Source: a virus. From it: a stretch of 29,380 nucleotides of DNA. The position numbers were made by a program, and so were the translations under genes. The stretch is taken from positions 1-29,380 of the IMG/VR virus record IMGVR_UViG_3300038463_000127; one strand, written 5' to 3'. The notes below the pieces were generated by a model that worked only from the letters and a program-made list of their open reading frames with translations, was not told where the DNA came from and did no database searches. How positions within the stretch are numbered: the first letter of the stretch is position 1; every line of letters begins with the position of its first letter. Shown here one piece after another: positions 1 through 28,910 of this stretch.

Positions 1-3000
1 CCACTAAATCCAGAAATACCCGAGAAGCCGCTGTAGCCGGATATACCAGAGAATCCAGAATAACCTGAGATGCCACTGAACCCTGAGTAGCCAGAAACTC
101 CACTGAATCCGCTATAACCACTTATGCCGCTAAATCCACTGAAACCTGATATTCCTGAAAATCCAGAGTATCCTGAAATACCCGAGAACCCTGAATATCC
201 ACTATAACCAGAGATTCCTGAGAAGCCACTAAATCCACTTACTCCACTGAATCCAGAAATTCCAGAAATTCCACTAAAGCCACTATATCCGCTAATACCG
301 CTGAATCCAGAATAACCACTAATTCCGGAGAAACCGGAATATCCAGAGATACCGCTGAATCCGGAGAAGCCACTATATCCTGAGATGCCGCTAAATCCTG
401 AATAGCCAGAAATTCCAGAGAATCCAGAAAAGCCGCTTACTCCGCTAAAACCAGAGAAGCCACTTACACCACTAAATCCAGAGAACCCGGAAATACCAGA
501 GAAGCCGCTATAACCGCTAATGCCGCTAAATCCACTATATCCTGAGATACCAGAGAATCCAGAATAACCGGAGATGCCGCTAAATCCTGAAAACCCGCTA
601 ACTCCGGAGAAGCCACTAAATCCTGATACCCCGGAGAATCCACTATACCCAGAAATGCCACTAAATCCTGAGAAGCCAGAGACTCCACTGAATCCAGAAT
701 AACCTGAAATACCTGAGAATCCACTATATCCACTTATCCCAGAAAATCCTGAAAAGCCGCTTATGCCACTGAATCCAGAGAATCCTGAAATTCCTGAATA
801 GCCGCTATAACCAGAAATTCCAGAGAAGCCAGAATAGCCTGAAATACCAGAGAAACCTGAGTAGCCACTAATTCCTGAAAACCCACTATACCCACTAATG
901 CCGCTGAAGCCAGAGAATCCGCTTATGCCACTGAATCCAGAGAATCCGCTTATGCCACTGAATCCAGAGAATCCAGAAATGCCTGAGAATCCGCTGTAGC
1001 CACTGAAGCCAGAGAAACCAGAGAATCCACTTACTCCTGAGAATCCCGAGTAACCACTTATTCCAGAAAATCCTGAGTAACCCGAAATTCCAGAGAAGCC
1101 ACTAAAGCCACTTACTCCGCTAAATCCGGAAAAGCCAGAGTATCCACTAACTCCAGAGAAACCGCTATAACCAGAATATCCTGAGTAACCAGAGATTCCG
1201 CTAAATCCTGAATATCCGGAAATGCCACTGAAACCCGAATAACCAGAGATACCTGAGAACCCAGAGAAACCAGAAATGCCGCTAAATCCGCTAAATCCAG
1301 ACACGCCCGAGAAGCCACTGTATCCGGATATACCTGAGAATCCAGAATATCCAGAGATTCCACTAAATCCTGAATAACCAGAAATACCAGAGAAACCACT
1401 GTAACCACTTACTCCACTGAAGCCCGAGTAACCCGAAACTCCTGAAAATCCACTGAATCCTGATACCCCCGAGAAACCACTAAATCCAGAAATACCCGAG
1501 AAGCCGCTGTAGCCGGATATACCGGAGAAGCCTGAGTAACCAGAAAGCCCCGAGAAGCCACTATATCCACTAATGCCACTGAAACCGGAGAAGCCTGAAA
1601 CTCCGGAAAATCCACTGAATCCTGAAATACCAGAGAAACCTGAGTATCCTGAAATACCAGAGAAACCTGAGTATCCTGAAATACCTGAGAAACCTGAATA
1701 GCCACTAATACCGCTGAAGCCAGAGTATCCTGAAATTCCGGAAAATCCCGAGAATCCTGATACTCCGCTAAATCCAGAAAATCCAGACACGCCCGAGAAG
1801 CCACTGTATCCGGATATTCCAGAGAAACCAGAATATCCAGAGATTCCGCTAAATCCTGAGTAACCAGAAACGCCGGAAAATCCACTGAATCCCGAAATAC
1901 CGGAGAATCCTGAGAATCCTGATACACCGCTAAATCCTGAGAATCCACTTATGCCAGAGAATCCAGAGTAACCTGAAGTTCCAGAGAAGCCACTATAGCC
2001 ACTGAAACCAGAATAGCCTGAAATACCAGAGAAGCCACTAAAGCCACTTACTCCGCTAAAGCCACTGAACCCACTAATTCCAGAGAAACCAGAATACCCA
2101 CTTATTCCGGAAAAGCCTGAGAACCCGGACACTCCACTAAAACCACTGAATCCTGATGTTCCTATTCCCGAGAAGCCGCTATAGCCAGAATAACCTGAGA
2201 TTCCTGAAAATCCACTAAATCCAGAAACGCCAGAGAATCCCGAGAATCCACTTATGCCAGAGAAACCGCTAAAGCCTGATGTTCCTGCTCCAGAATATCC
2301 ACTAAATCCACTAAATCCCGAGAATCCTGATACTCCGCTAAAGCCTGAGAATCCTGATAATCCACTGAAACCGCTAAACCCACTTATTCCAGAAAATCCT
2401 GAGAAGCCACTATAACCAGATGACGCGGCAGATCCATTTAATCCAGAAAATCCGGAGATTCCGCTAAATCCAGAAAATCCACTAATGCCGCTAAATCCTG
2501 AGAAGCCTGAAATACCAGAGAATCCAGAATAACCAGAAACTCCTGAGAAGCCACTAAATCCTGAGATACCAGAGAACCCCGAGAACCCAGAAATTCCGCT
2601 AAACCCACTGAACCCAGAAAGTCCAGCACCGGAGAAGCCACTAAATCCTGATGTTCCTGAAAAGCCAGAGTATCCGCTAATACCACTGAAACCAGAGTAA
2701 CCAGAAATCCCAGAAAATCCGCTGAAACCTGATAAGCCAGAAAATCCAGAGAAGCCACTTACACCACTAAATCCAGAAACGCCGGAGAATCCAGAATAGC
2801 CTGAAATGCCAGAGAACCCAGAAATTCCACTGAAGCCTGAGTAACCACTGATACCGCTGAAACCAGAATATCCGGAAACTCCTGAGAATCCAGAGAATCC
2901 ACTAAATCCAGAAATGCCAGAGAATCCTGAATAACCGGAGATGCCGCTAAATCCTGAATAACCACTGATGCCAGAAAAGCCACTAAAACCACTCACTCCG

Positions 3001-3850
3001 CTAAATCCAGAGAACCCAGAAACACCAGAGAAGCCAGAATATCCAGATGCCCCCGAGTAACCAGAGTACCCAGAAATGCCACTATATCCGCTAACTCCAG
3101 AGAATCCGCTGAAGCCGCTTATTCCACTAAACCCAGAGAACCCACTATAACCAGAGAATCCAGAGAATCCGCTGAACCCACTGAACCCAGACTTTCCAGA
3201 GAAACCAGAATAACCTGAAATTCCTGAGAAACCAGAGTAGCCGCTTATTCCTGAGAAACCTGAATAGCCTGAAACTCCTGAGAAACCCGAGTAACCAGAT
3301 ACTCCGCTAAATCCAGAGAATCCTGAAATGCCGCTGAAACCACTAAAGCCGCTGATACCAGAGAACCCACTATAGCCTGAAATACCGCTGAAGCCGCTAA
3401 ATCCACTTACTCCCGAGAATCCTGATACGCCAGAAAATCCACTGTAACCTGAATAGCCTGAAATGCCGCTAAATCCTGAAAATCCACTTTGACCAGAATA
3501 TCCAGAAGTTCCAACTCCGGAATAACCACTTATTCCAGAGAATCCGCTGAATCCTGAAATTCCTGAGAATCCAGAGAATCCGCTAACTCCATTACTTCCT
3601 GTTCCTCCACTGTAACCAGAAAATCCACTTATACCAAGACCACTAAATCCTGAAAACCCGCTAATACCGTTATTTCCAGAATATCCAGATACTCCTGAGA
3701 AACCGCTAAAGCCAGAAGAACCAATATTACCACTAAACCCGCTAATTCCTGAAAATCCTGAAACCCCGCTTATCCCGCTAAAACCACTGAATCCAGATAT
3801 TCCCAACCCACTAAACCCAGAGAATCCACTTAGCCCCATAAATCCGGAAC
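1..3850 (-). repeat. Degenerate 9-bp repeat array encoding Gly-X-Ser
   Basis: The unit is three codons (Gly, X, Ser) with free use of synonymous Gly and Ser codons. Higher-order copies exist: 1-47 is identical to 1477-1523, and the segment around 1310-1400 closely matches that around 1785-1875. A block reading GCTTATGCCACTGAATCC recurs near 750, 920 and 945. This indicates growth by segmental duplication as well as point divergence. All indels keep the reading frame. Confidence 0.9.
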
Positions 3851-4094
3851 CACTTGCACCTGTACTGAAAATTACCCAGGCGCTTCCGTTCCATTGCCAC
3901 GTGTTGCCATCAACAGAAGTAGTACATAACATACCAGTAACTTTTCTGATATCTGGAATTGCATCTCTATCAGAAGTTAACGTTACATTGTATAGACCAC
4001 CAATACCCTGATTAGCATAATGAGTTCCATAAGTGTCATTTGTATCCGGCTGAATTATTGGAGCAATTATTATCGTACCTATATTAGCTGTCAT
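1..4094 (-). CDS. Giant Gly-X-Ser collagen-like fibre protein (C-terminus beyond window)
   Basis: An open frame runs from the ATG at 4094-4092 to the left edge (1364 complete codons); I checked the frame at many points and found no stop. Residues 1 to about 80 are a non-repetitive head, probably for attachment or trimerisation, containing TWQWNGSAWV (65-74), a motif type common in phage fibre proteins. From about residue 80 the protein is a continuous Gly-X-Ser repeat in which X is nearly always Phe, Tyr, Ile or Val. Interruptions (GTSG, GLG, NNG, NIGSSG, SAASSG, single Lys, Gln or Ala at X) cluster toward the N-terminal end. The ATG overlaps the upstream stop (ATGA), indicating translational coupling in a two-gene late operon. 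Collagen-like repeats are known in tail fibres, but this one lacks proline and charge, so a standard triple helix is uncertain. Fibre role is inferred; the open frame and repeat are seen directly. Confidence 0.85.
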   Translation of the reverse strand, partial: MTANIGTIIIAPIIQPDTNDTYGTHYANQGIGGLYNVTLTSDRDAIPDIRKVTGMLCTTSVDGNTWQWNGSAWVIFSTGASGSGFMGLSGFSGFSGLGISGFSGFSGISGVSGFSGISGFSGNIGSSGFSGFSGVSGYSGNNGISGFSGFSGLGISGFSGYSGGTGSNGVSGFSGFSGISGFSGFSGISGYSGVGTSGYSGQSGFSGFSGISGYSGYSGFSGVSGFSGVSGFSGFSGISGYSGFSGISGFSGFSGISGFSGFSGVSGYSGFSGVSGYSGFSGISGYSGFSGISGYSGFSGKSGFSGFSGFSGFSGYSGFSGFSGISGFSGFSGVSGYSGISGYSGYSGASGYSGFSGVSGFSGFSGVSGFSGFSGISGYSGFSGISGYSGFSGISGFSGFSGFSGVSGYSGFSGISGYSGFSGISGFSGISGYSGFSGVSGFSGVSGFSGFSGLSGFSGFSGISGYSGFSGISGYSGFSGTSGFSGFSGAGLSGFSGFSGISGFSGFSGISGFSGFSGVSGYSGFSGISGFSGFSGISGFSGFSGISGFSGLNGSAASSGYSGFSGFSGISGFSGFSGLSGFSGFSGVSGFSGFSGFSGYSGAGTSGFSGFSGISGFSGFSGVSGFSGFSGISGYSGYSGFSGIGTSGFSGFSGVSGFSGFSGISGYSGFSGISGFSGFSGVSGFSGFSGISGYSGFSGYSGFSGTSGYSGFSGISGFSGFSGVSGFSGFSGISGFSGFSGVSGYSGFSGISGYSGFSGISGYSGFSGVSGFSGFSGVSGFSGFSGISGYSGFSGISGYSGFSGISGYSGFSGISGYSGFSGISGFSGFSGVSGFSGFSGISGYSGFSGLSGYSGFSGISGYSGFSGISGFSGFSGVSGFSGFSGVSGYSGFSGVSGYSGFSGISGYSGFSGISGYSGFSGISGYSGFSGVSGFSGFSGISGFSGFSGISGYSGFSGISGYSGFSGISGYSGYSGYSGFSGVSGYSGFSGFSGVSGFSGFSGISGYSGFSGISGYSGFSGVSGFSGFSGFSGYSGFSGISGFSGFSGISGFSGFSGISGFSGFSGISGYSGFSGISGYSGFSGISGYSGFSGISGYSGYSGISGFSGFSGISGFSGFSGISGYSGFSGISGYSGFSGVSGFSGFSGISGYSGFSGVSGFSGFSGVSGFSGFSGISGYSGFSGISGYSGFSGISGYSGFSGISGFSGFSGVSGFSGFSGVSGFSGFSGISGYSGFSGISGYSGFSGFSGISGYSGFSGISGYSGFSGISGYSGFSGISGISGFSGVSGFSGFSGISGYSGYSGFSGISGYSGFSGISGFSGFSGISGYSGFSGVSGYSGFSGISGYSGFSGISGYSGFSGISGFS

Positions 4095-4879
4095 GATACA
4101 CTCACTTGTATTCCGACGCCATATTGAACATAAGTAGATCTATAACAGTCATATGAAAGAACTAATGAATAAGTATTTGTATAGGAAATAGTTGTTTTCA
4201 CCCAGGCAGTATTCAACAATCCGTTCACAGTAAATGTAGGAGTTCCAAAAGAACTTGGCCATGCAAAGTAAATATATTGGCCGCTAGCAGATATTGTTTG
4301 TGATTGATGAAAGTTCAGAGATAGGTAATTTGAAAGACTATTCACTGTTGCTTCATTAGGAGTTACATCAGAAGATACGCCGTAGAACACAGGGTATTCA
4401 AATACAACTCCTGCTGATGACGTTGCTCCGTTAGTTCCGTCACTTCCAGAAATTGTCCATGTTTGAGATGATGTAAGTCCAAGACTTGTTAGATTATCAG
4501 TTCTTTGGGCTGCTGGCAGAAATCCTATTCCATTGTTTATCTCTTGTGCTATTATATTTTTATTCCAAGTCCAAGAAAGAGTTAGAGAGTTAATTGTTTG
4601 GCCAGTTGTCGCTACTGTTACGCTCGAATTCATCGAAACTGTAGGGGCGACATAAAGAAGTTGATCTAATGCTTCTTGTACGTTGGCTAATAACGGGTCA
4701 CTTGGATTCGTATAAGAGACTTCCGAGGCTGTTATTGGGCCACCGCCAGGGGTCAGCTCGGACACTTTTATGCTCTTATTTTTACCTTGACTTACGCTAA
4801 AAAATGGAATCAAGTCATCGGGATTAGCCGACAATACTTCAGGTAAATGTTGAATATCCATTGGAGGGAGTACTGCCAT
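4091..4879 (-). CDS. Phage structural/fibre-associated protein with SWTWNK-type domain
   Basis: 262 residues. The N-terminal part (about 7-45: DIQHLPEV, DDLIPFFSVSQGK, IKVSEL) resembles the leading segment of many phage neck or fibre proteins. The middle and C-terminal parts carry a pattern I recognise from tail-fibre-associated virion proteins: LSWTWNKNI, a segment after AAQRTDNL, WTISGSDGTNGATSS, then FYGVSS. A C-terminal beta-rich segment ends in GVGIQVSVS. It is the first gene of the operon with the collagen-like fibre and overlaps its start by ATGA. It may link the fibre to the baseplate or assist trimerisation. A TATAAATA box lies 39-46 bp upstream of the start; the Shine-Dalgarno is weak. 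The virion role is inferred from similarity of pattern and context. Confidence 0.7.
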   Translation of the reverse strand: MAVLPPMDIQHLPEVLSANPDDLIPFFSVSQGKNKSIKVSELTPGGGPITASEVSYTNPSDPLLANVQEALDQLLYVAPTVSMNSSVTVATTGQTINSLTLSWTWNKNIIAQEINNGIGFLPAAQRTDNLTSLGLTSSQTWTISGSDGTNGATSSAGVVFEYPVFYGVSSDVTPNEATVNSLSNYLSLNFHQSQTISASGQYIYFAWPSSFGTPTFTVNGLLNTAWVKTTISYTNTYSLVLSYDCYRSTYVQYGVGIQVSVS

Positions 4880-4917
4880 TGAGGTAAAATCTTGTCCTTG
4901 TTGTTCTTTACTTCATG

Positions 4918-4925
4918 TATTTATA
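4918..4925 (-). promoter_or_regulatory. T4-like late promoter (TATAAATA) for the fibre operon
   Basis: The plus strand reads TATTTATA, so the minus strand has an exact match to the T4 late -10 consensus TATAAATA. It is correctly oriented for the 4879 start and would give a leader of about 30 nt. A divergent TATAAT box for the plus-strand glycosyltransferase lies 30 bp away. Confidence 0.65.
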
Positions 4926-4954
4926 AAAGTTGTGATTTTGGCTTTCATTTCTTG

Positions 4955-4960
4955 TATAAT
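4955..4960 (+). promoter_or_regulatory. TATAAT box 6 bp before ATG (possible leaderless start)
   Basis: An exact TATAAT ends 6 bp before the ATG at 4967, so transcription starting at the usual distance would begin at or next to the A of the start codon. No Shine-Dalgarno is visible. A weak TTGTGA (4930-4935) lies 19 bp upstream, and GGCTTT occurs in between. Confidence 0.5.
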
Positions 4961-4966
4961 ATCCTA

Positions 4967-6145
4967 ATGGCTAAAAAGTTCTCTATAATTATACCAACAT
5001 TTAATCATTGCTCCGATTGTCTCCAGCCGGCCATCGAGTCCATCCTAAAATACACAGACCAATCAATCATAGAAATTATCATCGTCTCAAATGGTTCTAC
5101 AGACGGGACTGACGAATACCTAAAAACTCTTCCCAAAGATATTTTTACAACTCTCTCCTTCCCAGAACCTCTTGGCTATACTCGTGCTACTAATGAAGGA
5201 ATAAAAATTGCCAATGGAGAGTTCGTAATTCTCTTCAATAATGATAATCTTCTACTTCCGCAACCAACGAATGAATGGCTGAATTATCTTCATAAACCAT
5301 TTATAACGGACCCTAAATGCGCTATTACTGGTCCTCTTCGGCTTCAAGATGTTTATGTTAATTGCGGAGTTATTATCTTCTTCTGCGCAATGATACCTCG
5401 AAGGCTATTCCAGGAGTTAGGATTATTGGATGAAATATTCTCTCCAGGAGGGTGCGAAGATATTGATTTTACTATGAAATGTATAAATGCTGGTTATACA
5501 ACACATCAAGTTCCTTCTAATGAAAAGGCTCAATTTACCGAAACCAATACGACAATTTTTATGATATGGCACAAGAATAATAAAACATTTGGAGAGATAC
5601 CAGAATATTCTTCACATATTATCAAGAGGAATGGAATGGTTGTATTGAAGAGATATAATAAGAATATAAAATTGAATATAGGTTCTGGTTCTATTCATTT
5701 ACAGCACTATGGATTTATTAGTGTAGATGATAAAAATCCTACTGCTGACTTGGTTGGAGATATTTGCGAAGATTTAGTTTTTGATGATAATTCCGTTAGT
5801 GAGATTTATTGTGGTCATGTCATCAATCATTGTGAAGATGCTGTGAGATTTTTGGAGACGTGTTATAGGATATTGAAACCAGGAGGATTTATCGCTGTGG
5901 AAATGCCTGATATGTGGAGACTTTGTGAAGAATATCTCAAAGGCAATTTGGAGAGGCGTCAGGAAGTAATGAAGTGGCTTTTTGACGGATATGATATTGA
6001 ATGGAAAAAGTATTCGGCTATGTCTGGGTGGGATTGTGAGAGTATGAAAAATCTTATGGAGAAAATAGGATTTAGGAATATAATGATAGGAAGTGAAGTA
6101 ATGAAGAGAAGTGGAATTAATTTTAGATGCCAAGGAAATAAATGA
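4967..6145 (+). CDS. Family 2 glycosyltransferase fused to SAM methyltransferase-like domain
   Basis: 392 residues from the ATG at 4967; an in-frame ATG at 4892 is rejected because MAKKFSIIIPTFNH is the natural start of a GT2 domain. Residues 5-225 are a GT-A fold: SIIIPTFNH, VSNGSTDGT, nucleotide/metal motif FNND (NND at 91-93 in place of DXD) and CEDIDF (163-168). Residues about 233-350 are class I methyltransferase-like: glycine motif LNIGSG (236-241) and LKPGG (303-307). The whole protein is paralogous to the first roughly 430 residues of the 985-residue protein at 7666. It lies divergently beside the fibre operon and ends with an ATGA overlap into the next gene. It probably transfers and perhaps methylates a sugar on a virion or host glycan; acceptor unknown. 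Confidence 0.85.
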   Translation: MAKKFSIIIPTFNHCSDCLQPAIESILKYTDQSIIEIIIVSNGSTDGTDEYLKTLPKDIFTTLSFPEPLGYTRATNEGIKIANGEFVILFNNDNLLLPQPTNEWLNYLHKPFITDPKCAITGPLRLQDVYVNCGVIIFFCAMIPRRLFQELGLLDEIFSPGGCEDIDFTMKCINAGYTTHQVPSNEKAQFTETNTTIFMIWHKNNKTFGEIPEYSSHIIKRNGMVVLKRYNKNIKLNIGSGSIHLQHYGFISVDDKNPTADLVGDICEDLVFDDNSVSEIYCGHVINHCEDAVRFLETCYRILKPGGFIAVEMPDMWRLCEEYLKGNLERRQEVMKWLFDGYDIEWKKYSAMSGWDCESMKNLMEKIGFRNIMIGSEVMKRSGINFRCQGNK

Positions 6146-7665: not shown

Positions 7666-10623
7666 ATGTCTAAAAAAATAAAATATTCCGTCGTTATTCC
7701 GACATATAATCACTTCCGCGATGCACTACTACCGTGTATCGAGTCAATTATAAAATATACCGACTTCTCTGAAACAGAAATTATCGTAGTGGCTAATGGT
7801 TGTGTTGATGAGACCAAGGATTATCTCGCTACATTACCTAAAAATATATTCAAGACTATATGGATTGATGCTCCTTCCGGATACACTGTCAGCACCAATA
7901 GAGGCATAGACGAAGCAGAAGGCGATTACATTATATTGCTAAACAATGATACTGCTCTACTTCCACAGCCAATAAATCAATGGCTTCATATGCTGGAAGA
8001 GCCATTTACTAAAGATCCGTTGGTTGGGGCATCTGGACCCATGCTCAACTACTGTCCCCATTCAGAGAGAAACTTCCTTATCTTCTTCTGTGTTATGATA
8101 AAAGTTGAAATGTTCGAGAAGTTCGGATTACTTGATGAAATATTCAATCCTGGCTTTGGAGAAGATACTGACTTTTGTATAAAACTTCAGGATGCCGGTT
8201 ATAAGTGTATTCAGGTTCCAATAGAAGGACCATTGATAGCCGATTCCAATCAAGAGAGAATGACAGGATTTTATCCAGTCTGGCACGCTGGAGAAATAAC
8301 TCTCGGTGTAATGCCTGAAGGAAATGCTCTACTCGCTAAAAATCGTAAAATACTCGAAGATAGATATAAAAATAAAAAGCCTAATTATGAAGTAAAACCA
8401 CAGTATCACATATTCAATGCCACAACAGCAACAATAAAAGAAGAGCCTAAAACTACTTCTGATCCATTCACCCACCTTACGAAACTCAATATTGGTTGCG
8501 GAGACGCTTTACTTCCTGGATATCTCAATACTGACTTATATAATCCTAATGCTCAAGTGAAAGCTGATGCTACTAAGCTTCCGTTCCCTAATGGAAGATT
8601 CGAAGAAGTAATATCTATACAGGTATTCGAGCATCTCCCCTGTCAGGAAGCTATGAATATCCTTACAGAATGGAAAAGAGTTCTAAAACCAGGCGGAAAA
8701 CTCGTTATTGAAGTTCCTAATATTCAAGAACTATGTAAAAACTTCGAATCAGCAGATAAACAAGCCAGATACCGTATTCTTGATTGTATTTACGGCACGA
8801 CTTTCCCGAAAACGCCCCACCTCTACGGCTGGTATCCTGAAATCCTCAATGATCATCTCATCTATATTGGGATGGAGAAAATCATATTCAGTCCTGCCCA
8901 AGTCTATCATTGGGGGTATAATATGAGAGTTGAATGTTATAAGTCAGACGGCAAACCTAATCCAGAACCGGAGAAAAGTCAAGAAATGAAAAATATTCTC
9001 AATGATGTGGAGACGATAAAGTTGTCTGACATTCCCAACACAAAGGACTTGAATGCTAATGGGGCGAAGTGGGCAGAAGATAAAGACCTGATTGTACCTA
9101 CAGAATTGCCAGAAGGGTATTTTAGCACGGAAGATATTCAAGTATATAGAAGTCTTGTTAGTAATTTGCCAGATAATGGTTCTATGGTTGAGATAGGAGT
9201 ATGGAAAGGAAAATCTCTCTGTTCAATAGCCGATATTATTCGCAGCAAAAACATAAAAGTATATGCTATCGACACATTTAAAGGAACTGATAATATTGAT
9301 GAGCAGTTTTTAGCGAATGAAGCAAAAGAACACAATATTCGTGTTATTTTTGAGGAGAACATTCGTAGGTTCGGAATAAAAAATAATGTCGTGATTATGG
9401 AGATGGATAGTATAGAAGCGGCGAAGTGTATAAAATTGAAACCGGAACCGTTTATTGATTTTATTTTTATTGATGGCGATCATATGTATGAGAATGTGAA
9501 AAATGACATTAATGCTTGGATGCCTCTGATGAAAGACGGGAAGGCGCTGGCTGGCCATGATATAAAATGGAACGGAGTTATGAGGGCAGTTCAAGAGATT
9601 TTTAGTGCTCCCGATATCTATGCTATCGATAATCTGTGGTGGAGTAAAAAGATATCCCACAATAGGGGAAGAATAATTGACGGGTTCATATTCTCTAACG
9701 AACTTGACATTATTGAGATGAGATTGAATATATTGGATGATGTTGTAGATAAGTTCGTCATTGTTGAGAGCACTAAAACTCATACCAATAAAGATAAGCC
9801 ACTTTACTTCAACGAAAATCTCGGTAGGTTCAGGAAGTTTTTACATAAGATTGAGCATGTCATTGTTGAGGATAATCCAGATAACAACGACGATCCATGG
9901 AGCCGCGAGAGACACCAAAGAGACTGTATTATGCGTGGTTTGAAAGATATGCGCGATGATGATATTGTAATGATTAGTGATGCCGATGAAATAGCCAATC
10001 CGGAATTATTGAAGATATATAGTGCTTCTATGGGCCCTAAAATGCTCTGTATGAAGTTGTTCTATTATGCTCTCAATGTTCTTGCTCCTGAAAATAAATG
10101 GCAGTGGCTAAAAATAGTTCCTTGGAAAGTCATAAAAGATAATAATATGACATGTTGCCAGATACGTTATACAGAGTTTCCGCAATTCGGAGAAGATTTT
10201 GCTGGAGGCTGGCATTGGTCCTATGTCGGTAATAAAGACTTCATAAAAAATAAAATAGAGAGTTTTGCCCATACCGAGCACGATAAACCAGAAATAAAAA
10301 ACACCATAGAAGATAAGATAAAAAATAATAAAGATTTGTTCGGAAGAGATATAACATTTGAGACAGTAATGATAGACGAAAGTTATCCAGATTACGTCAG
10401 ATATAATTTTGATACTCTCTATAAAAAAGGGTTTATCAAGGATGGACTAAAAGATGCTTCCGTTGACAATGATATACAACAATTCAACTATCAAAACCAA
10501 CAAAGAAATATGACAATTCTTCCGCAACACTGGATATCATTACAACAACCATCAATATATCAGAGCCTCATGGCTGCTAATTCAGATAAGACGCAGAAAG
10601 TTTATGAGCATACAATAAGATAA
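7666..10623 (+). CDS. Four-domain GT2 - methyltransferase - methyltransferase - GT17 fusion
   Basis: 985 residues with four enzymatic modules. Residues 5-245: GT2 (YSVVIPTYNH, ANGCVDET, LLNNDT near 91-96, GFGEDTDF). Residues about 270-430: class I methyltransferase (LNIGCG at 275-280, ADATKLPFP, LKPGGKL). Residues about 485-660: a second methyltransferase of the MTase_24 kind (MVEIGVWKGKS near 507, AIDTFKG, FIDGDHMYENV near 600, GHDIKW). Residues about 670-920: glycosyltransferase family 17 (IIDGFIFSNELDIIEMRL, VIVESTKTHT, ISDADEI near 769). GT17 members add GlcNAc to mannose in eukaryotes and occur in bacteria and large viruses. One chain could build and cap a methylated glycan. The first two modules are paralogous to the protein at 4967. 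A weak AGAAAG precedes the ATG. It ends abutting a convergent HNH gene with no obvious terminator. The true acceptor is unknown. Confidence 0.88.
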   Translation: MSKKIKYSVVIPTYNHFRDALLPCIESIIKYTDFSETEIIVVANGCVDETKDYLATLPKNIFKTIWIDAPSGYTVSTNRGIDEAEGDYIILLNNDTALLPQPINQWLHMLEEPFTKDPLVGASGPMLNYCPHSERNFLIFFCVMIKVEMFEKFGLLDEIFNPGFGEDTDFCIKLQDAGYKCIQVPIEGPLIADSNQERMTGFYPVWHAGEITLGVMPEGNALLAKNRKILEDRYKNKKPNYEVKPQYHIFNATTATIKEEPKTTSDPFTHLTKLNIGCGDALLPGYLNTDLYNPNAQVKADATKLPFPNGRFEEVISIQVFEHLPCQEAMNILTEWKRVLKPGGKLVIEVPNIQELCKNFESADKQARYRILDCIYGTTFPKTPHLYGWYPEILNDHLIYIGMEKIIFSPAQVYHWGYNMRVECYKSDGKPNPEPEKSQEMKNILNDVETIKLSDIPNTKDLNANGAKWAEDKDLIVPTELPEGYFSTEDIQVYRSLVSNLPDNGSMVEIGVWKGKSLCSIADIIRSKNIKVYAIDTFKGTDNIDEQFLANEAKEHNIRVIFEENIRRFGIKNNVVIMEMDSIEAAKCIKLKPEPFIDFIFIDGDHMYENVKNDINAWMPLMKDGKALAGHDIKWNGVMRAVQEIFSAPDIYAIDNLWWSKKISHNRGRIIDGFIFSNELDIIEMRLNILDDVVDKFVIVESTKTHTNKDKPLYFNENLGRFRKFLHKIEHVIVEDNPDNNDDPWSRERHQRDCIMRGLKDMRDDDIVMISDADEIANPELLKIYSASMGPKMLCMKLFYYALNVLAPENKWQWLKIVPWKVIKDNNMTCCQIRYTEFPQFGEDFAGGWHWSYVGNKDFIKNKIESFAHTEHDKPEIKNTIEDKIKNNKDLFGRDITFETVMIDESYPDYVRYNFDTLYKKGFIKDGLKDASVDNDIQQFNYQNQQRNMTILPQHWISLQQPSIYQSLMAANSDKTQKVYEHTIR

Positions 10624-11748
10624 TTATTTTTTCTTTTTAGGAAGAATCGACCATCCTTTTTTATGGTCATTCCATTTTCTTCTACTAAAATCTTCAGGTA
10701 AAGTGTCGTTTTTTATTTTATTGTCCAATTCCCACATAGGTTGTATATTAGTATAATGGAAGCACATCTGTTGACCTTCAAGGGTTCTTATAATTTTTAG
10801 AACATTCTTGAAGTAGTCGCAAGGAATGATGTGATCATAATTCCATTTACCTGGACCTTTACCGTGGTTTTCCCAAGTCATTCCTGGCAAAAATTGCTTC
10901 TCTATCCATCGATAAAAACAATCCAGAGAACACCCTAATAACTTGAAAGCACTACTTTTTTTGTCTTTTCTTTTTACATGATATCTAAAAGCGCCTCTTA
11001 ATTGGCTCATTGTTCTATGATTTTTATCCTTTTTTCTTCTATCTCTGGCCCTTTTATTAATTGCCGGCCTGTTATTTTTAGAATATTCTTTATCATATTC
11101 TTGGAGATGTTTTTTATTCTTTTTTCTCCATCTTTTCATATAATTAGGATCTTTTTTCCTTCTTTTTCTATTATTTTTTGCTACTCTTTTTTTATTTTTT
11201 TCGTACCACTCTTTTCCTTTTCCATTAGAACACAGTTTGCACCAGCCAGCTTTACCATCTTTACTATTTTTATTATTATAGAAATCCTCTATTGACTTAT
11301 CTTCTCCACAAGGCCCCTGACATATTTTATGTGTTCTGTTCATCATCTCTTCCGTAACAATTCTATCCTTACATTCATCGCAGCACATCATTTTATCTAT
11401 ATTACGTTTTATTCTTTGGATAATAGCATTAGGAGATACCAACCATTCCGCAGTACAACCTTTATTTTTACAATAGAACAATGTCGGCGTGTTGCTGTTT
11501 ATAATTTCCCCTTTTATTCCTATATTAGTATCTTTTAGAAATATATCTTCATAATCCTTTTTTGATCTTTTTATTTTGCCTCGTCTTTTTTTAGGTATTT
11601 CTGGTATTTTATCGGCTAATTTTTCCATAGTTGGAACGATAGTAGAATATTTTATATTTTTTATTTTATTAACTTGAGACTTTGGTAATTTAGTCTTTAT
11701 TACCTCTTCTTCGCTATGTTTATGATTACAATTTGGTTTATCGCACAT
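10624..11748 (-). CDS. HNH homing endonuclease with Cys-rich N-terminus and zinc ribbons
   Basis: 374 residues. The N-terminus has a Cys/His cluster (C2, C7, H9, H11). A first ribbon uses C93/C98 and C122-C126; a second is of the recombination-endonuclease-VII-like kind seen in many phage HNH proteins: C143-x3-C147, then DFYNNKNSKDGKAGWCKLC (C170, C173). A very basic linker (185-265) follows, then the HNH core: GMTWENHG, YDH (D305, H306), and NIQPMW (N334) with DNKIKND. It is probably a DNA-cutting selfish gene. It is convergent with the 985-residue gene, with stops side by side. Its start codon lies within the structured leader shared with the gene at 28904, with which it also shares N-terminal features (MC..., EEE, the ETM/MEKLADK-like segment and TNIG). 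Confidence 0.88.
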   Translation of the reverse strand: MCDKPNCNHKHSEEEVIKTKLPKSQVNKIKNIKYSTIVPTMEKLADKIPEIPKKRRGKIKRSKKDYEDIFLKDTNIGIKGEIINSNTPTLFYCKNKGCTAEWLVSPNAIIQRIKRNIDKMMCCDECKDRIVTEEMMNRTHKICQGPCGEDKSIEDFYNNKNSKDGKAGWCKLCSNGKGKEWYEKNKKRVAKNNRKRRKKDPNYMKRWRKKNKKHLQEYDKEYSKNNRPAINKRARDRRKKDKNHRTMSQLRGAFRYHVKRKDKKSSAFKLLGCSLDCFYRWIEKQFLPGMTWENHGKGPGKWNYDHIIPCDYFKNVLKIIRTLEGQQMCFHYTNIQPMWELDNKIKNDTLPEDFSRRKWNDHKKGWSILPKKKK

Positions 11749-11961: not shown

Positions 11962-13005
11962 ATGAATAATGCTGATGTGACTGCTTATATCTCTACGAAG
12001 GATAGGTATGGAACCACTCTACCTCTCGCAATGGCTTCTATAATAAATCAGACAGTTCTTCCAAAAAAGTTTATCATGTTCCAAGATAGCGAGCCAGTAG
12101 ATATTAGAACCAATAGCCTATATCTTCACTTACTTCATCTTCTTGACGAAAAAAAGATAGAATGGGAAATTGTCTTCGGTCCTAAAAAAGGCCAGAGTTG
12201 GAATCATCAAGCGGCAATTACAAAAGCGAAAACTGAATGGCTTTGGAGACTTGATGACGATAATATAGCAGAGCCTAATGTCCTAGAAGAATTATTGAAA
12301 AGCGCCGATGATAAAACAGGAGCAGTAGCAGGATTGGTTATCGATCCATCCCAGATAAAAACAACCGATGATAGGAACTTGAAAAATGACATAGCGCACA
12401 TTTATGACCAACCTAATACGCAGTGGTTCAAGCACGTTCGTAAAGATGTCTTCGATGTAGAGCATTTATATTCTTCCTTCATTTATAGGAAGAAAGCAAG
12501 CGAGCACGGATATTGTTTATCTCTATCTCCCGTTTGTCATCGCGAAGAAACTATATTCTCCCACGAAATGTTCAGAGCAGGATGGAAATTGAAGATAAAT
12601 CCTAATGTAATTACTTGGCATTTGCGTGAACCGACAGGCGGCATTAGAAGTTATACTGATAAATCGTATTGGGATCATGACGAAGCCATTTTTACAGAAA
12701 AGATGAAATTGTGGCAGACTAATATAAAAGATGATAACTTCTATGTGATTTTAGACGCAGGGCTAGGAGACCACTGGGCATTCAAGCATATTCTCCAAGA
12801 ACTAAAAGAAAAATATAAAGATAAGTTAGTTATTGCCTGTTGTTATCCTGCCGTCTTCTCGAACGATAATGTAAAACTTATTAGCATTCAAGATGCTAAA
12901 AATAAGTTCAACAATATAGAAAAATATAATTTATACCAGTGGATGGGAGAGAACAACTGGAAGGGAACTCTCATTGATGCTTATCGGAAAATGTATTTAT
13001 CGTAA
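11962..13005 (+). CDS. Family 2-like glycosyltransferase with C-terminal extension
   Basis: 347 residues. The GT-A part (about 6-225) begins TAYISTKDRYG and contains the DXD metal motif in WRLDDDN (98-100), an acidic motif VCHREET (192-197) and ITWHL. Residues about 255-347 form a separate segment starting FYVILDAGLGDHWAFKHIL, which resembles the N-terminal glycine loop of GT-B heptosyltransferases and may be a remnant of one. Unlike the GT2 modules at 4967 and 7666, this one has a standard DXD. AGGAA lies 7 nt before the ATG. It is separated from the other glycosyltransferases by the HNH cassette, which may have inserted between them. Substrate unknown. Confidence 0.8.
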   Translation: MNNADVTAYISTKDRYGTTLPLAMASIINQTVLPKKFIMFQDSEPVDIRTNSLYLHLLHLLDEKKIEWEIVFGPKKGQSWNHQAAITKAKTEWLWRLDDDNIAEPNVLEELLKSADDKTGAVAGLVIDPSQIKTTDDRNLKNDIAHIYDQPNTQWFKHVRKDVFDVEHLYSSFIYRKKASEHGYCLSLSPVCHREETIFSHEMFRAGWKLKINPNVITWHLREPTGGIRSYTDKSYWDHDEAIFTEKMKLWQTNIKDDNFYVILDAGLGDHWAFKHILQELKEKYKDKLVIACCYPAVFSNDNVKLISIQDAKNKFNNIEKYNLYQWMGENNWKGTLIDAYRKMYLS

Positions 13006-17110: not shown

Positions 17111-18751
17111 ATGAGTAGTAGCGCATTAATCGATTGGAGCCAATTCAAGGGCGATGACGCATATTTTATCGGAAACCACAGAGCAATCGTAGAAGATAAT
17201 GATGATCCGCAAAAAGCAGGTCGAGTTCGCGTGAGAATATATGGCCTTCATTCTCCATTTTCGGAAGAGACACCCACCCCACATTTGCCTTGGGCTCAGC
17301 CGTGCTTATCTATCGGATGGAGTGGCGGGCATAATATCTATAATAAAGAAAGCGTCGATATTACTACTCGTTATAGACCAGGCAATCAGAGCGATCAGAC
17401 ACTTCCAGCAAAAAACTCTACTTTTTTACAGCCGCCTTCCGTATCTAATGTAAGTTCATTCGTAGATCCGGTAGAGGATGATTGTGGAACAGGGGGAATA
17501 TTTACGGTTCCAAGAAAAGGCACAATAGTATGGGTATTTTTCGAAGGTGGAGATCATACTTCTATCCATTACTTCTGCGCATCCCCGAAAAAGAAGGACT
17601 GGCAAGATCAGCAAGTAAAAATAACTGGCGATGTAAAGGATAAAATTGATCAGGTAGCATCATTAAGAGATAATTTTACGCCTGACAGAGAGTTATATTC
17701 TGGATCTGCTCCTGCTAATAATGCCGGAGTTCAGACGTGGTGCTCTAAACCAAGAATGTCTATATATCCCATAGACAATATCCCGCAACAGAATATTACT
17801 TCGTTCACGTCAGCCACAGGAACAACATTTATTATAGTAAATGATGCTGGACATGAGCGCATCTACGTTGTTAATAAAGGTTATATATCGCAAGTAGATG
17901 AATACGGACATAAAAAAGAATTGGTTGGGCCTACATCAACTGGCAACTCTAATAACACAATAAACTCCAATGACGAAAAATTAGTAGCAGGGCATAGCGA
18001 ACTTCATATTATGGGAGACTATAATGTCTTTACTGATGGTAATTGCTTCTTCCAAGTTCAAGGAAATGCCCAATTCAATGTCAGTCAAAATGTTGGAATA
18101 GTATCTCAATCTGGAGACGTTGATGTTGTTGTAAAATCTGGAAATTGTAATCTTGAACTCACCCAGGGAAATATGAATGCCCACGTTGCCGGCAATCTTC
18201 AAGCTCAGATAGATAATAGTATGATAGCGAAGGTAGGTAGTAATGTAGATCTATCGGTTAGTGGAAATCTTACGGCTGAAGTAGAGGGGAGTACATCTAT
18301 TCAATCAGATGGCGGAATAGTTCTATCTTCATCTGGTGGAGATATTACATTGGATGCCGGAGCAGGTAATCTCAATCTTCTCTGTACGTCCTTCATGTTA
18401 TCTGCTAATTCTGATGTAAATATAACTGCTCCTGCTGGCGTAGATATTGATGCTGGTAGTTCCTTTGCTATTGATGCTACTGGGTTCGGTGGGGATGTAT
18501 CAATGAATGCTCCTATATCAAATGCTCTTCATACTGGTTGTTATCCTGGTCCTGGTGCCGGGCCGCCAACTCCTTTTATTGCTGTTCCTAATCCTGCCGT
18601 TCCTGCTACTCCTGTTCAATCCACACAATTTTCCGATAGTCCTAAGTCGGAAACTGTTCAAGCAAATGTAAGTGATAATGAGCAAACTGATGACGTTGAT
18701 GCTCCCGACAATCCCCAAGATACAGTAGATCCAAGTAGCCTCCATGGATGA
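17111..18751 (+). CDS. 5: Baseplate central spike (gp5/VgrG-like), no lysozyme domain
   Basis: 546 residues. N-terminal OB-fold with AGRVRVRIYGLHSP (37-50), HLPWAQPC and PRKGTIVWVFFEGGD (134-148), the standard pattern of gp5/gpV/VgrG spike proteins. Residues about 240-475 are a repetitive beta-helix-like region (NVSQNVGIVSQSGDVDVV, VSGNLTAEVEGS, GDITLDAGAGNLNL), forming the trimeric needle that pierces the outer membrane. Unlike T4 gp5, no lysozyme domain lies between OB-fold and needle. The C-terminus is unusual: a Pro/Gly-rich stretch (GPGAGPPTPF), then an acidic, probably disordered tail. GAGGAA precedes the ATG. It is the first gene of the spike, gp25, gp6, gp7 run. Confidence 0.85.
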   Translation: MSSSALIDWSQFKGDDAYFIGNHRAIVEDNDDPQKAGRVRVRIYGLHSPFSEETPTPHLPWAQPCLSIGWSGGHNIYNKESVDITTRYRPGNQSDQTLPAKNSTFLQPPSVSNVSSFVDPVEDDCGTGGIFTVPRKGTIVWVFFEGGDHTSIHYFCASPKKKDWQDQQVKITGDVKDKIDQVASLRDNFTPDRELYSGSAPANNAGVQTWCSKPRMSIYPIDNIPQQNITSFTSATGTTFIIVNDAGHERIYVVNKGYISQVDEYGHKKELVGPTSTGNSNNTINSNDEKLVAGHSELHIMGDYNVFTDGNCFFQVQGNAQFNVSQNVGIVSQSGDVDVVVKSGNCNLELTQGNMNAHVAGNLQAQIDNSMIAKVGSNVDLSVSGNLTAEVEGSTSIQSDGGIVLSSSGGDITLDAGAGNLNLLCTSFMLSANSDVNITAPAGVDIDAGSSFAIDATGFGGDVSMNAPISNALHTGCYPGPGAGPPTPFIAVPNPAVPATPVQSTQFSDSPKSETVQANVSDNEQTDDVDAPDNPQDTVDPSSLHG

Positions 18752-18787: not shown

Positions 18788-19177
18788 ATGACGACACCAG
18801 TCCAATCAATTTTTTACTCTGACCTCCCCTATCAACCAGGGCTTACGCAGCTTGGAGATATTTCCCTTATTACTAATTTAGCGGATATTAAGCAGGCTAT
18901 TTTAACAATAGTTTATACTCCACAAGGCTCAAGGCTTTTCGAACCTACCTTCGGGGTTGGCATAGAGAGATACCTTTTCGAACCTTTTACCAAGGCAACA
19001 GCGCAAAATATAGGAAAAGCCATAGAGAATGGATTAAGAACATATGAACCGAGAATATCTCTACAGTCTGTGAATGTATCTATGGAAAAAGATGTTAGTT
19101 ATAATGTATCAGTTCAATATCTTGTGATTGATAGTCAGTCCAACGATTCCATCAACGTTCAACTCACAACGTCCTAA
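18788..19177 (+). CDS. 25: Baseplate wedge protein gp25-like
   Basis: 129 residues, close to T4 gp25 (132). The fold family (GPW/gp25, related to T6SS TssE) is shown by DISLITNLADIKQAILTI, the core motif TPQGSRLFEPTFGVGIERYLFEP (spread over about 47-69) and the helix NIGKAIENGLRTYEPRI. Gp25 joins gp6 and gp53 in the baseplate wedge and helps nucleate sheath assembly. It is intact, sits between the spike and gp6-like genes as expected, and has its own late promoter. Confidence 0.92.
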   Translation: MTTPVQSIFYSDLPYQPGLTQLGDISLITNLADIKQAILTIVYTPQGSRLFEPTFGVGIERYLFEPFTKATAQNIGKAIENGLRTYEPRISLQSVNVSMEKDVSYNVSVQYLVIDSQSNDSINVQLTTS

Positions 19178-19196
19178 AAATAGAGAATATATAAAA

Positions 19197-22100
19197 ATGG
19201 GTTCCACGCAGCAACCATCTACGCAGATAACACAAAAGAGAACTATTGATTACATTAGTTTCGACTTCGACTCCCTTCAACAGGACATGATCAACTTCCT
19301 GAACGAAACTGGCTCATTCAAGGATGCTTCTCTTGTTCAGTCCAATATCAATACTCTTACTGGACTTTTCGCTTATATTGGGGCTCTTTTTGGGTATTAT
19401 ATCAATTCTGCCGCTAATGAAGTCTTCCTATCTACTGCCAAGCGCTATAAGAACCTCAATAAGATAGCACAAATGCTCCGCTATGATCCACGTGGAACCG
19501 AAAGCGCCTCTGTCAATGTCGTTGGCTCTCTTGTTGATAATTATGTATTCGGTAAGGCAGGCGAATATATCGAGATACCAGCATATTCAACATTCCCTGC
19601 TGTTCTTGCTTCTAATACTGGGACCAATTTTAGTTTTACCAATCCTCAATCCCTTGTTCATCTTGTTCAAGGCTTCGGTATCTCACAATTCAATATTACC
19701 AACCTATCTTATAACGGATATCCTCTCCCTTTTACTGCTCCCGCTAACTTTTTTTATAATAATGTCAATCAAGTCTATATAAATCCTCTCAATATCTCTA
19801 TTCCTCTATCTCTTCAGAAGCCTTTATCAATAATCAATGTCAATACAGTAGATAATTACTACGGCTTCGATACAACTAATTATCCACAGTTCAATCCAGA
19901 TGACAGCAATTCAGTAGGTCAGCCATTTATAGAGACTGTTTTCGGAACTGAATATGCTCAAACGATGGTTCCTAATACACCTTATTATCTTGTCTTCAAC
20001 TGGGACTCGAATACATCAACTCCGTTCATAAGTGTAGTCACCGATCCTACTATCCTTGGAATAAAAGAAGAGGACGTGCTCTGTGCTATTATTCTTCAAC
20101 CTACCGACAATACCAATACGAATTACACTCTTCAACAATATGAGACTGGTCAATTCAATAGGTTCTTTTTAGGTGTTCTAGGAATTGAGAACCTGACCAG
20201 CGCGTCTCTTCAATACTCATTCTTCCCGGACAATCTTCAAGCAATTCAACAAATAAATCTAGTAATAAACCAAGATGGCGAAAGTCCTCCAATGACTATT
20301 CTGATATCTGGCGTCTATTATACATTTAGTAGTGGCACAATATCAAGTCAGATGTTCGATGAAAACTTTTTTAGTTCCGATGCCGCCGAATATTTCGTGA
20401 ACTTCGCTATTACTGACCCATCAAATCCATTGACGAATTACGGCGCCACTCTCAATGTCACTACGCTACCACCTGTTGCTAATGAAGTCACCATAGCAAC
20501 CATCACCACCAACTATACAGACTTGGCGAGTGGAACATCGGCCCTAGCAACATCCAACAACAGCCGCTTCGGCAACATTCAAGTTATTCCTACTATTCCA
20601 GTTCAGACATCTACGCAAATAGCCGGCAGAGCATTTATATCTCCTGGGCAAACCTATCAGACTATTACATTCCAAAATCCACTTACTATCCAGCCAGGAG
20701 AATCGCAAGTCAATTACAACGTCAATCTTACTCCTGATGGCAACGTAAGAGTATGGTATGGGCTTGCCGATGCTAATGGATTTACAATTTATGTAGAACC
20801 AAATACCCAATATACCGGATATGTCTCTTGGATAGCCACAGTAATAAACAATGATAATATCCGTCAGCAGAATGTTGTCTTCAATACTCCAATTCCATTA
20901 GGCATATCCGAAAATGGTCTCACGTCTAATTATATGGTTCAATTGACGCCTAACGAGAACATCCAAGTATGGTATGAAAATCCGACTACTACTGGCTTCA
21001 CTATTCAGACAGAGAAGTCATTTACGGGTAAAGTATCTTGGAGTGTTTATAATTATTTCGCAGATGATACCGTTCCGACAGAGCCAGATAGCGGATACAG
21101 ACAGCAGGGACAAGTACTATTACCAGCCGGAGTATTCTCACAGGCAATAGTTCTTGATACCCCAATTACCGATATAAATTATGCTATTCAGTTAGTTCCT
21201 AATACGAACATTAACGTCTTCTATACGAACAAATCATCGAAAGGATTTACTCTCAATATAGAACCTGGCGTTGCTAATACCATTACTACTGTGAATTGGT
21301 ATGTCGATAGTAGCATTGGATATACATTCCAACAGCACGGCGAAATTGATTTTTCAGGTAGCCTCACTGGACAAGCAACTATTCCAGGATTTAGGTTTTC
21401 GAATGTTCCAGAGACATTTACAATACAAAACCTTCTTCAAGGCTCTGTCGCCTTCACATCAATAAACGCAAATACTATTATAGACACGAGCAATAATGGC
21501 TTACAGATATCGGTAGACCCAACAAGATTGGCAGAAGATGATGTAAGATATATAGTCAATAATAATTCAATATCAACTAATAGCATCAGAGTATTCATTA
21601 AGAACTCTTCCGGAACTTGGGACGAATGGCAGAGAGCCGGAACTGGTTATGATATTAGTACGGCAGTTGGTCAAAAAGTATTCTTCGTCAGAGTAAATCC
21701 CGAACAACTTATTCTTATCGAGTTCGGAGATGGCGAAACGTATGGGACTTCTCCACTCAATCAGGAAACTCTTATTATTGGGCTGAATAGCGTAGGAGAT
21801 CAGGGCAATATTAATAAAGGCGTCATCAGTCCTAATCCAATAGTCTCACAATATATTCTTGGTAATGACAATACTGATATTAACTTCGAGGCTAACTTCG
21901 TCGCTTTACTCGGACTAAAATCTCAACAATACTTCGATGGTAATACGCCTTCTACATCTATTATAGATAGCGCAGGAACAGCGCTTCATCAAGGCGATCT
22001 CACAATTCTACAAAATGTTAGTGCCGCTGGAGGAAATGTTGTTGAAACCCCAGATGAATTGAGAAAGAATGCCAGCAATTACTTCGTCACTCAAGGAAGG

Positions 22101-22856
22101 AATGTCTCTACAAATGACGTTCTTCTCTATGTTCAGGAAGTATTTACTGATTATATTCAGGCAGCCGACGTGCTTACCTATAACGATATTCAGTCTGCCG
22201 GACTTCTCTCTCCAACCCAATTAGCACAATACTTCTTCAATTACATTTTTATTGTTGCTCTGAATAAAGACGGATCCAATATTATCAGTAAAAATCTCAA
22301 TGATACAATAGTTAGTCAATTAGAGAACTCGGCAATAAGTATGATCGGACAAGCATATGCCGTTGTTCCTGCTACGTGGGTTCCTATTGATATTCTTATT
22401 CGCTATACAAGTGTCAAGAGTTCTAATCCAGAGACAATCGAATCCCAGATGAAGCAGAATATTAGTAATTGGTTCGATCCTAATAATCATATGCTCGGTG
22501 AAACTATCAATGCTTCTGATATTATCTCTCTTGTCAATTCGCCAACAGTTCCTAATGTGACAGCAGTGGAAGTCATGCTCAATAAAGATCCAGGAGAGCA
22601 ATTCACTGTTGCTGATTATACTCCTTCCGTGTCGCCTCAAGCAACAGAACAGGAAGCAATCCAAGCACGTAAAAATAGGCTCATGCAGTTGGTGAGTAAG
22701 AACCCATCTCTTGTAAAGGTGTTCCAACCTCTCTTCAATTCTCTCCAAAGTGATGGGACGGTTCATTACGATTATACGCTGAATGTTCAATTACAGCGCT
22801 TCGAGTTCCCTCAACTTGGACAAATCATTATTGAACAAGATTTATCAGGCTCATAA
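19197..22856 (+). CDS. 6: Baseplate wedge protein gp6-like (baseplate J), with lectin-like insert
   Basis: 1219 residues from ATG 19197; an in-frame ATG at 19128 would overlap gp25 by 50 nt and is less likely. The N-terminus (DYISFDFDSLQQDMINFLNE, FAYIGALFGYYINSAANEVFL, LNKIAQMLRYDP) and the C-terminal half (RVNPEQLILIEFGDGETYG, then TPDELRKNASNYFV near 951 and GRNVSTNDVLLYVQEVF) match gp6/baseplate-J proteins, which form the ring tying wedges together. T4 gp6 has 660 residues. The excess is largely a central region (about 480-720) with three tandem beta modules of about 80 residues. No strong Shine-Dalgarno is visible. Confidence 0.88.
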   Translation: MGSTQQPSTQITQKRTIDYISFDFDSLQQDMINFLNETGSFKDASLVQSNINTLTGLFAYIGALFGYYINSAANEVFLSTAKRYKNLNKIAQMLRYDPRGTESASVNVVGSLVDNYVFGKAGEYIEIPAYSTFPAVLASNTGTNFSFTNPQSLVHLVQGFGISQFNITNLSYNGYPLPFTAPANFFYNNVNQVYINPLNISIPLSLQKPLSIINVNTVDNYYGFDTTNYPQFNPDDSNSVGQPFIETVFGTEYAQTMVPNTPYYLVFNWDSNTSTPFISVVTDPTILGIKEEDVLCAIILQPTDNTNTNYTLQQYETGQFNRFFLGVLGIENLTSASLQYSFFPDNLQAIQQINLVINQDGESPPMTILISGVYYTFSSGTISSQMFDENFFSSDAAEYFVNFAITDPSNPLTNYGATLNVTTLPPVANEVTIATITTNYTDLASGTSALATSNNSRFGNIQVIPTIPVQTSTQIAGRAFISPGQTYQTITFQNPLTIQPGESQVNYNVNLTPDGNVRVWYGLADANGFTIYVEPNTQYTGYVSWIATVINNDNIRQQNVVFNTPIPLGISENGLTSNYMVQLTPNENIQVWYENPTTTGFTIQTEKSFTGKVSWSVYNYFADDTVPTEPDSGYRQQGQVLLPAGVFSQAIVLDTPITDINYAIQLVPNTNINVFYTNKSSKGFTLNIEPGVANTITTVNWYVDSSIGYTFQQHGEIDFSGSLTGQATIPGFRFSNVPETFTIQNLLQGSVAFTSINANTIIDTSNNGLQISVDPTRLAEDDVRYIVNNNSISTNSIRVFIKNSSGTWDEWQRAGTGYDISTAVGQKVFFVRVNPEQLILIEFGDGETYGTSPLNQETLIIGLNSVGDQGNINKGVISPNPIVSQYILGNDNTDINFEANFVALLGLKSQQYFDGNTPSTSIIDSAGTALHQGDLTILQNVSAAGGNVVETPDELRKNASNYFVTQGRNVSTNDVLLYVQEVFTDYIQAADVLTYNDIQSAGLLSPTQLAQYFFNYIFIVALNKDGSNIISKNLNDTIVSQLENSAISMIGQAYAVVPATWVPIDILIRYTSVKSSNPETIESQMKQNISNWFDPNNHMLGETINASDIISLVNSPTVPNVTAVEVMLNKDPGEQFTVADYTPSVSPQATEQEAIQARKNRLMQLVSKNPSLVKVFQPLFNSLQSDGTVHYDYTLNVQLQRFEFPQLGQIIIEQDLSGS

Positions 22857-28762: not shown

Positions 28763-28910
28763 TCCCTTGTGATATAAATAGTAAGTGTATTAGGCTGTAT
28801 AATTGGATCCGTCGAAAAGAACAATTTTATATCCTGAGCCGCCAGAATGGTAATAGCAAACCATTCGACGGATCCAAACCATTGCTGGGGCCAGGGTATC
28901 TATATGTGCG
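28763..28910 (+). ncRNA. Structured leader, copy B (covarying 14-bp stem, anti-SD, alternative helices)
   Basis: Plus-strand homologue of the leader at 11742-11895. Stem P1: TTGGATCCGTCGAA (28803-28816) pairs perfectly with TTCGACGGATCCAA (28864-28877). Inner hairpin GAATGGT (28845-28851) / ACCATTC (28860-28866). Alternative helix S2: CCAGAATGGT (28842-28851) with ACCATTGCTGG (28878-28888). Anti-SD ATATCCTG (28829-28836) pairs with CAGGGTAT (28892-28899), one G-U pair, covering the AGGG Shine-Dalgarno. Nearly all unpaired or alternative segments are identical to copy A, whereas P1 differs in six fully compensated pairs. Confidence 0.75.
28773..28803 (+). promoter_or_regulatory. Late TATAAATA (28773-28780) and TATAAT (28798-28803) boxes of leader B
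   Basis: Same arrangement as in copy A: GTGATATAAATAGTA, then TTAGGCTGTATAAT running into the stem. A TATAAT start would fall near 28810, inside the 5' arm of P1. Confidence 0.6.

Follow-up and report, generated by a model that had tools for sequence, protein, structure and literature searches.

How a collagen triple helix can be held together in the absence of proline (Pro) and hydroxyproline (Hyp) has long been asked, and the question is raised by a fibre gene in the virus record IMGVR_UViG_3300038463_000127 (IMG/VR), the entire 29,380 bases of which we analysed as one window. The gene codes for a long array of Gly-X-Ser (GXS) triplets in which X, the second position, is aromatic or aliphatic in nearly all triplets and Ser occupies the third position (Y). 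The same repeat type is present in hundreds of viral contigs, and these form a large virus class travelling with dedicated glycosyltransferases, which goes beyond what a preliminary description of the window had pointed out. With modest confidence, we favour the reading that fibre and glycosyltransferases constitute a dedicated module, in which sugars on the Y-position Ser of a collagen-like rod replace Pro/Hyp as the stabiliser. The fibre genes of the window are as follows.

3..4094, minus strand: GXS fibre gene, 1364 amino acids (aa), ATG at 4094, open to base 3 without a stop, C-terminus beyond the contig end
3861..4094, minus strand: N-terminal domain of the GXS fibre, residues 1-78, non-repeat, with sequence likeness to phage proteins
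3..3860, minus strand: Gly-X-Ser array, residues 79-1364, 422 triplets
4091..4879, minus strand: upstream fibre/tip gene, 262 aa, overlapping the start of the GXS gene

The window array is 1286 residues long and is interrupted at 8 short breaks, of which seven are G-X-G slips and the eighth is GSAASS; its longest unbroken run counts 239 triplets. X is Phe in 201, Ile in 85, Tyr in 79, Val in 37 and Leu in 6 triplets (66% aromatic), while Ser fills Y in 416 of 422; Pro is absent throughout, a single Lys is the only charged residue, and Gly stands in X in one triplet of the 422 and in Y in none. The preliminary description, which had spoken of about 420 Gly-X-Ser triplets essentially devoid of Pro and charge, was accurate on this point. 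Its fibre of more than 1300 residues holds for the protein of 1364 aa but not for the repeat, as the first 78 residues are non-repeat, and it placed the repeat at 1-4094 with no mention of strand or truncation: the protein is read from the minus strand, the plus frame being full of stops, and is cut at its C-terminus by the contig end. The Pfam Collagen family (PF01391) matches the array with E 6.8e-181, a match carried by the Gly spacing, and searches of solved structures with the repeat likewise matched collagens through Gly spacing alone; the third structure matched, 8zxl, has a repeat that contains Pro and was set aside as uninformative on the fold. Residues 17-75 of the N-terminal domain share approximately 40% identity with hypothetical proteins from phages of Bacteroides and Vibrio, and this domain is presumed to be the virion-attachment end. 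In the 262-aa upstream protein, the last 74 residues (188-261) resemble the tip at the C-terminus of collagen-like phage fibres rich in Pro (loci L130-L133), with approximately 40% identity. Searches of viral contigs with the N-terminal domain, a 1958-aa protein and gp25 yielded no relative holding the missing C-terminus.

The arrays were then found to be widespread among viruses. A five-triplet pattern gave at least 119 stretches in IMG/VR. With a seven-triplet pattern, viral contigs yielded 116 stretches and 257 Gb of genomes from bacteria and archaea a single one, which lies on a phage-like contig; the class is therefore essentially viral. This sole array of the genome collection (L128:92-2995, JAHEYD010000010.1) belongs to a metagenome-assembled genome called Candidatus Nitrosotalea; a tail-like protein and a small fibre protein adjoin it, and the contig is probably a mis-binned virus. 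Among 50,697 phage records searched by blastn with three different arrays, the sole isolate with an aromatic GXS array was the Methylophilaceae phage P19250A. Its fibre gene, P19250A_0023 (KX815270.1, L229:21390-24995), is annotated 'tail length tape-measure protein', very likely a misannotation, because gene 0015 already carries the tape-measure name. Our literature search found no paper describing the GFSG/GYSG/GISG repeat class or a proline-free phage collagen. One paper on freshwater Nanopelagicales phages mentions a pair of collagen-like proteins, encoded in a variable island beside the tail fibre (PMC10202952), which are possible members of the class. The same blastn search also returned LR756501.1, a 735-kb uncultured phage with an open reading frame (ORF) of 2816 residues and 779 mostly GTS/GSS triplets (L227:2898-11345), and a further locus (L010:2526-12351) codes for approximately 936 triplets in a 3272-residue protein with both ends complete.

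The X residues of the window array show a 9-residue order, with aliphatic residues recurring at intervals of three triplets (autocorrelation 0.73 at lag 3; identity z = 14.6). Synonymous codon choice at Gly, at Ser and at the wobble base of X has almost no periodicity, and the order is therefore held at the protein level. Ser codons are mixed between TCN and AGY, and the array is neither chance nor a recent DNA duplication. Between near-identical arrays of relatives, the pooled ratio of nonsynonymous to synonymous differences (pN/pS) was about 0.07, a rough figure drawn from overlapping pairs, and purifying selection keeps the arrays. The 9-residue order differs between relatives, and the general rule is only that no two aliphatic X stand in a row: with the stretches used to select loci masked, consecutive aliphatic X were avoided 12-fold in 103 of 103 arrays (89 observed versus 1095 expected), with 2 versus 38 in the window and 3 versus 12 in P19250A, whose array was not found by pattern. 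As to the cause, lateral knobs-into-holes packing or the shunning of beta nucleation are our guesses. Since the 9-residue order varies between relatives, we set aside its interpretation as a left-handed beta-helix or as RTX-like. Where X is Ile, Val or Leu, Tyr comes after it more often than before.

The grammar of the arrays is collagen-like. Aromatics make up 52.7% of X versus 0.31% of Y in 30,885 triplets of GXS arrays, and over 300 triplets of collagen alpha-1(I) Phe occurs 11 times in X and never in Y, the same one-sidedness. The main break type is the G-X-G slip (1381 of 1917 breaks), which is familiar from non-fibrillar collagens, and three loci (L050, L065, L118) mix GXS and GPT/GPQ triplets in one uninterrupted register. 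In relatives the C-terminal domain is either a trimeric chaperone of the S74 type or a small beta domain; S74 (Pfam 1.5e-16) was identified in 32 of 113 distinct C-termini, and the nearest solved structure to these ends is the S16 gp37 chain, 6f45_A, which is present in three copies. The window array shows the long run of regularly spaced Gly, one in every three residues, that defines the collagen class; the Pro/Hyp-rich composition that is typical of that class, though not strictly required, is lacking (0 Pro in 1286 residues). Control viral arrays, chosen by the GPT pattern, contained 50% Pro and 1.2% aromatics in X, in agreement with the earlier remark that Pro or polar residues are the norm in collagen-like fibres of phages, and the reported share of Pro in X is 19% for all bacteria and 31% for Gram-positives (PMC8968730). 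Because of the Gly spacing, the aromatics confined to X, the G-X-G slips, the GPT/GPQ mosaics and the S74 chaperones, the sequences favour a collagen-like trimeric fibre as the best supported architecture over a polyglycine-II bundle, though they do not prove the fold itself.

Three family-2 glycosyltransferase genes adjoin the fibre genes of the window, and for this reason their recurrence in other loci was examined.

4892..6145, plus strand: homologue of the family here called GT-A, a family-2 glycosyltransferase fused to a methyltransferase (Pfam PF00535, 4.1e-20; PF08241, 1.9e-9)
7666..10623, plus strand: 985-aa protein with family-2 and family-17 glycosyltransferase domains and two methyltransferase domains
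11962..13005, plus strand: homologue of the family here called GT-B, a family-2 glycosyltransferase passing the Pfam family-2 threshold

Homologues of the window family-2 glycosyltransferases were present in 125 of 210 GXS loci, which were selected by pattern and are partly redundant (median E 1e-43 to 1e-71), in all 125 on the strand of the array and at a median distance of 60 bp; the matches were confirmed to be distinct from the array ORFs. GT-A homologues stood beside 78 arrays, the first domain of the 7666..10623 protein matching the same 78 loci, and enzymes of the GT-B family beside 118. Of the 69 loci whose sequence extends 4 kb or more downstream, 59 had the enzyme no more than 4 kb downstream; upstream, it was present in 5 of 68. 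In the GPT control, which comes from other phage lineages (GC 48% versus 42% for GXS), one locus of 120 had a homologue, and a weak one (Fisher p = 3e-32), and the cassette enzymes of P19250A were not found in these 120 loci. Reciprocally, viral contigs were searched with the GT-B alignment; among the best 80 of 472 relatives, which are close relatives of the seed enzyme, a GXS array was found upstream in 46 of 51 new loci with at least 3 kb of upstream sequence and in every locus with more than 5.2 kb. The GT-B family was found solely in P19250A among the 50,697 phage records, where P19250A_0025 belongs to it and the order is array, methyltransferase (0024), GT-B (0025) and family-9-like protein (0026). 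The cassette enzymes are diverse, forming 20 clusters at 70% identity, with the window enzyme at best 50% identical to another, and the linkage is therefore old. The GT-B homologue of the window is 41% identical to that of locus L124, whose own Pfam family-2 match is below threshold. GT-B had no PHROG match, and one GT-A PHROG match is GtrB-like. The window holds two traits of the module, a G[FYI]S array with Ser in Y and the GT-A and GT-B families nearby; as to the third, enzymes on the array's strand and directly downstream of it, the window enzymes lie upstream and divergent, and the region downstream of its array lies off the contig end. Ser in Y, at about 89% across GXS arrays, is the sole constant of all arrays; together with the linked glycosyltransferases and the fused methyltransferase, it makes Ser decoration of the phage's own fibre the most economical reading.

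Hyp stabilises animal collagen from the Y position, and our proposal is that sugars are needed as the stabiliser here because Pro and Hyp are absent. The GXS gene would code for the long shaft of a tail fibre, with the N-terminal domain attaching three identical chains to the virion; these would coil around one another as a collagen-like rod made of Gly-X-Ser triplets, the trimer being nucleated by a C-terminal domain that here would lie beyond the contig. Gly would point towards the axis, with the bulky X and Ser facing outward, and the enzymes of the same module (GT-A, GT-B and the family-9-like protein) would add sugars to the Y-position Ser. The sugars may stabilise the rod, keep it soluble and hide the aromatic X residues, and the rod would carry the tip to the host surface. 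What the sequences show is the repeat with its selection and grammar and the linkage of the genes; the triple helix, the sugar on Ser, its stabilising effect and the position of the fibre on the virion are inferred. The most far-reaching form of this proposal, a phage collagen without any Pro in which phage enzymes glycosylate nearly every Y Ser of the aromatic triplets and the sugar layer holds the triple helix, we put forward tentatively, at a little less than an even chance. The phage collagen-like protein EPclA forms a true triple helix with 2.9 A per residue (PMC3368898); at this rise, 1286 residues would give a shaft of at least approximately 370 nm if fully extended, and the L010 protein would reach approximately 0.8 micrometre (about 800 nm). 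Nature may thus have run the proline-free collagen experiment in hundreds of phages, with aromatic arrays tied to their own glycosyltransferases, and since the cultured phage P19250A carries the module, the question is directly testable. If the proposal is true, these loci offer a self-contained gene set for long glycosylated collagen-like rods, a portable module of fibre and enzymes; it would also account for a group of fibre genes that now lack an annotation or bear a wrong one, and provide a likely substrate for GT-B, a glycosyltransferase family without a PHROG entry.

A collagen-like trimeric shaft could, however, also do without sugars, if length and C-terminal trimerisation suffice and the hydrophobic X pack laterally, with the enzymes serving the host surface or DNA. 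Its collagen-like grammar would be identical, long bacterial collagens without Hyp are stable (PMC7824840), and the GtrB-like match of GT-A recalls O-antigen conversion. We nevertheless consider an unglycosylated shaft unlikely: the enzymes track the array across differing gene orders (gp6/gp25 baseplate in the window, protein J in P19250A), are absent beside Pro-rich arrays, bar the one weak homologue in 120, and GT-B occurs in no array-free record among the 50,697. Several observations weigh against the sugar-stabilised rod. No enzyme was near in 10 of the 69 arrays with enough flank, which also speaks for the bare shaft, and phage glycosyltransferases can modify DNA or host surface sugars as well. 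The differing lineages of the GPT control could explain part of the contrast, and the 80 reciprocal loci stem from close relatives of one seed enzyme. The window glycosyltransferases lie upstream on the opposite strand, unlike the usual downstream order. In collagen, Phe and Tyr rank low as stabilisers in X, as does Ser in Y, so that a GXS triple helix without modification may not be stable at all. Finally, the single-chain AlphaFold2 models, computed for residues 1-300 alone (mean predicted local distance difference test score, pLDDT, of 29) and for a 120-residue repeat block with 35 relatives (mean pLDDT 23), showed no strands in the repeat, no bundle and no confident fold. Such low confidence fits a chain that would fold only as a trimer or after modification; it proves neither.

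The same models would suit a glycosylated brush that is not a triple helix at all, in which single extended, sugar-coated chains resemble mucin or a glycofibril, as would Ser in nearly all triplets and the linked glycosyltransferases; yet a mucin-like chain needs neither strict Gly spacing, one-sided aromatics nor an order of X, and many relatives end in S74 trimeric chaperones, which makes the brush distinctly improbable. The preliminary description had left the choice between collagen, polyglycine II and a beta structure, and of these the collagen-like trimer is best supported by grammar and S74. A beta-rich sticky fibre driven by aromatics, akin to silks or Phe-Gly (FG) repeats, would agree with the composition, two thirds of X being aromatic, but the three-residue period mismatches the two-residue alternation of beta strands, adjacent aliphatic X are avoided 12-fold, and the two AlphaFold2 runs (pLDDT 23-29) lent it no support; we therefore regard it as highly improbable. 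Hardly plausible is a polyglycine-II, or polyproline-II (PPII), bundle in which a single chain folds on itself, the architecture of S16 gp38 and the snow flea antifreeze protein. These would share with the GXS fibre Gly-rich PPII chains, S16 gp38 sits on a phage fibre, and the array is Gly-rich and proline-free, but they differ from it in their GGX motifs, short helices with loops and single self-folded chain. PPII bundles do occur in phage fibres, but they are built from GGX triplets, in helices of 6-11 residues that loops connect (PMC13243192). Polyglycine II is supported on neither count, as Gly is nearly absent from X (1 of 422) and wholly absent from Y, and 239 triplets run without a break; nor did AlphaFold2 give a bundle.

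With regard to known sugar-bearing collagens, the proposed rod would resemble BclA of Bacillus, the cuticle collagen of Riftia and the Mimivirus collagen in carrying sugar on collagen. All three contain Pro, and their acceptors are Thr or Lys. In the vent worm Riftia, glycosylated Thr rather than Hyp is the stabiliser and takes over its role (PMC6953826, PMC10141479). BclA is a collagen from bacteria that bears sugars, and Mimivirus is a virus that adds sugars to a collagen of its own (PMC8968730). The EPclA type of Escherichia coli O157 prophages (PMC3368898) shares with the GXS fibres a Gly-X-Y stalk between virion-end and tip domains, short interruptions and, among relatives of the window fibre, a trimerisation domain; phage and bacterial collagens of this type use Pro/Thr and polar residues, in contrast to the window array with no Pro and 66% aromatic X. 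P19250A_0023 (KX815270) has the same GXS array type as the window and the same enzyme families after the array, but differs in its charged triplets, internal domains and siphovirus-like gene order, and its GT-A is reduced to the methyltransferase half. The LR756501 array is likewise proline-poor with Ser in Y over 779 triplets, but has Thr/Ser in X, and no cassette homologue was found in the 12 kb read.

The remaining part of the window contains baseplate genes, which identify a contractile-tailed phage.

17111-18751, plus strand: gp5-like baseplate gene
18788-19177, plus strand: gp25 baseplate gene
19128-22856, plus strand: gp6-like baseplate gene

The plus strand also codes for an exonuclease, a DNA methylase and an HNH nuclease; GC ranges from 30 to 46%, and no tRNA genes were found across the 29,380 bases. 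Two ORFs, 10624-11748 on the minus and 28847-29380 on the plus strand, had no Pfam match and are apparent paralogues with Cys/His-rich N-termini and similar middle parts; the former, situated between the glycosyltransferase genes, may be a mobile nuclease-like element.

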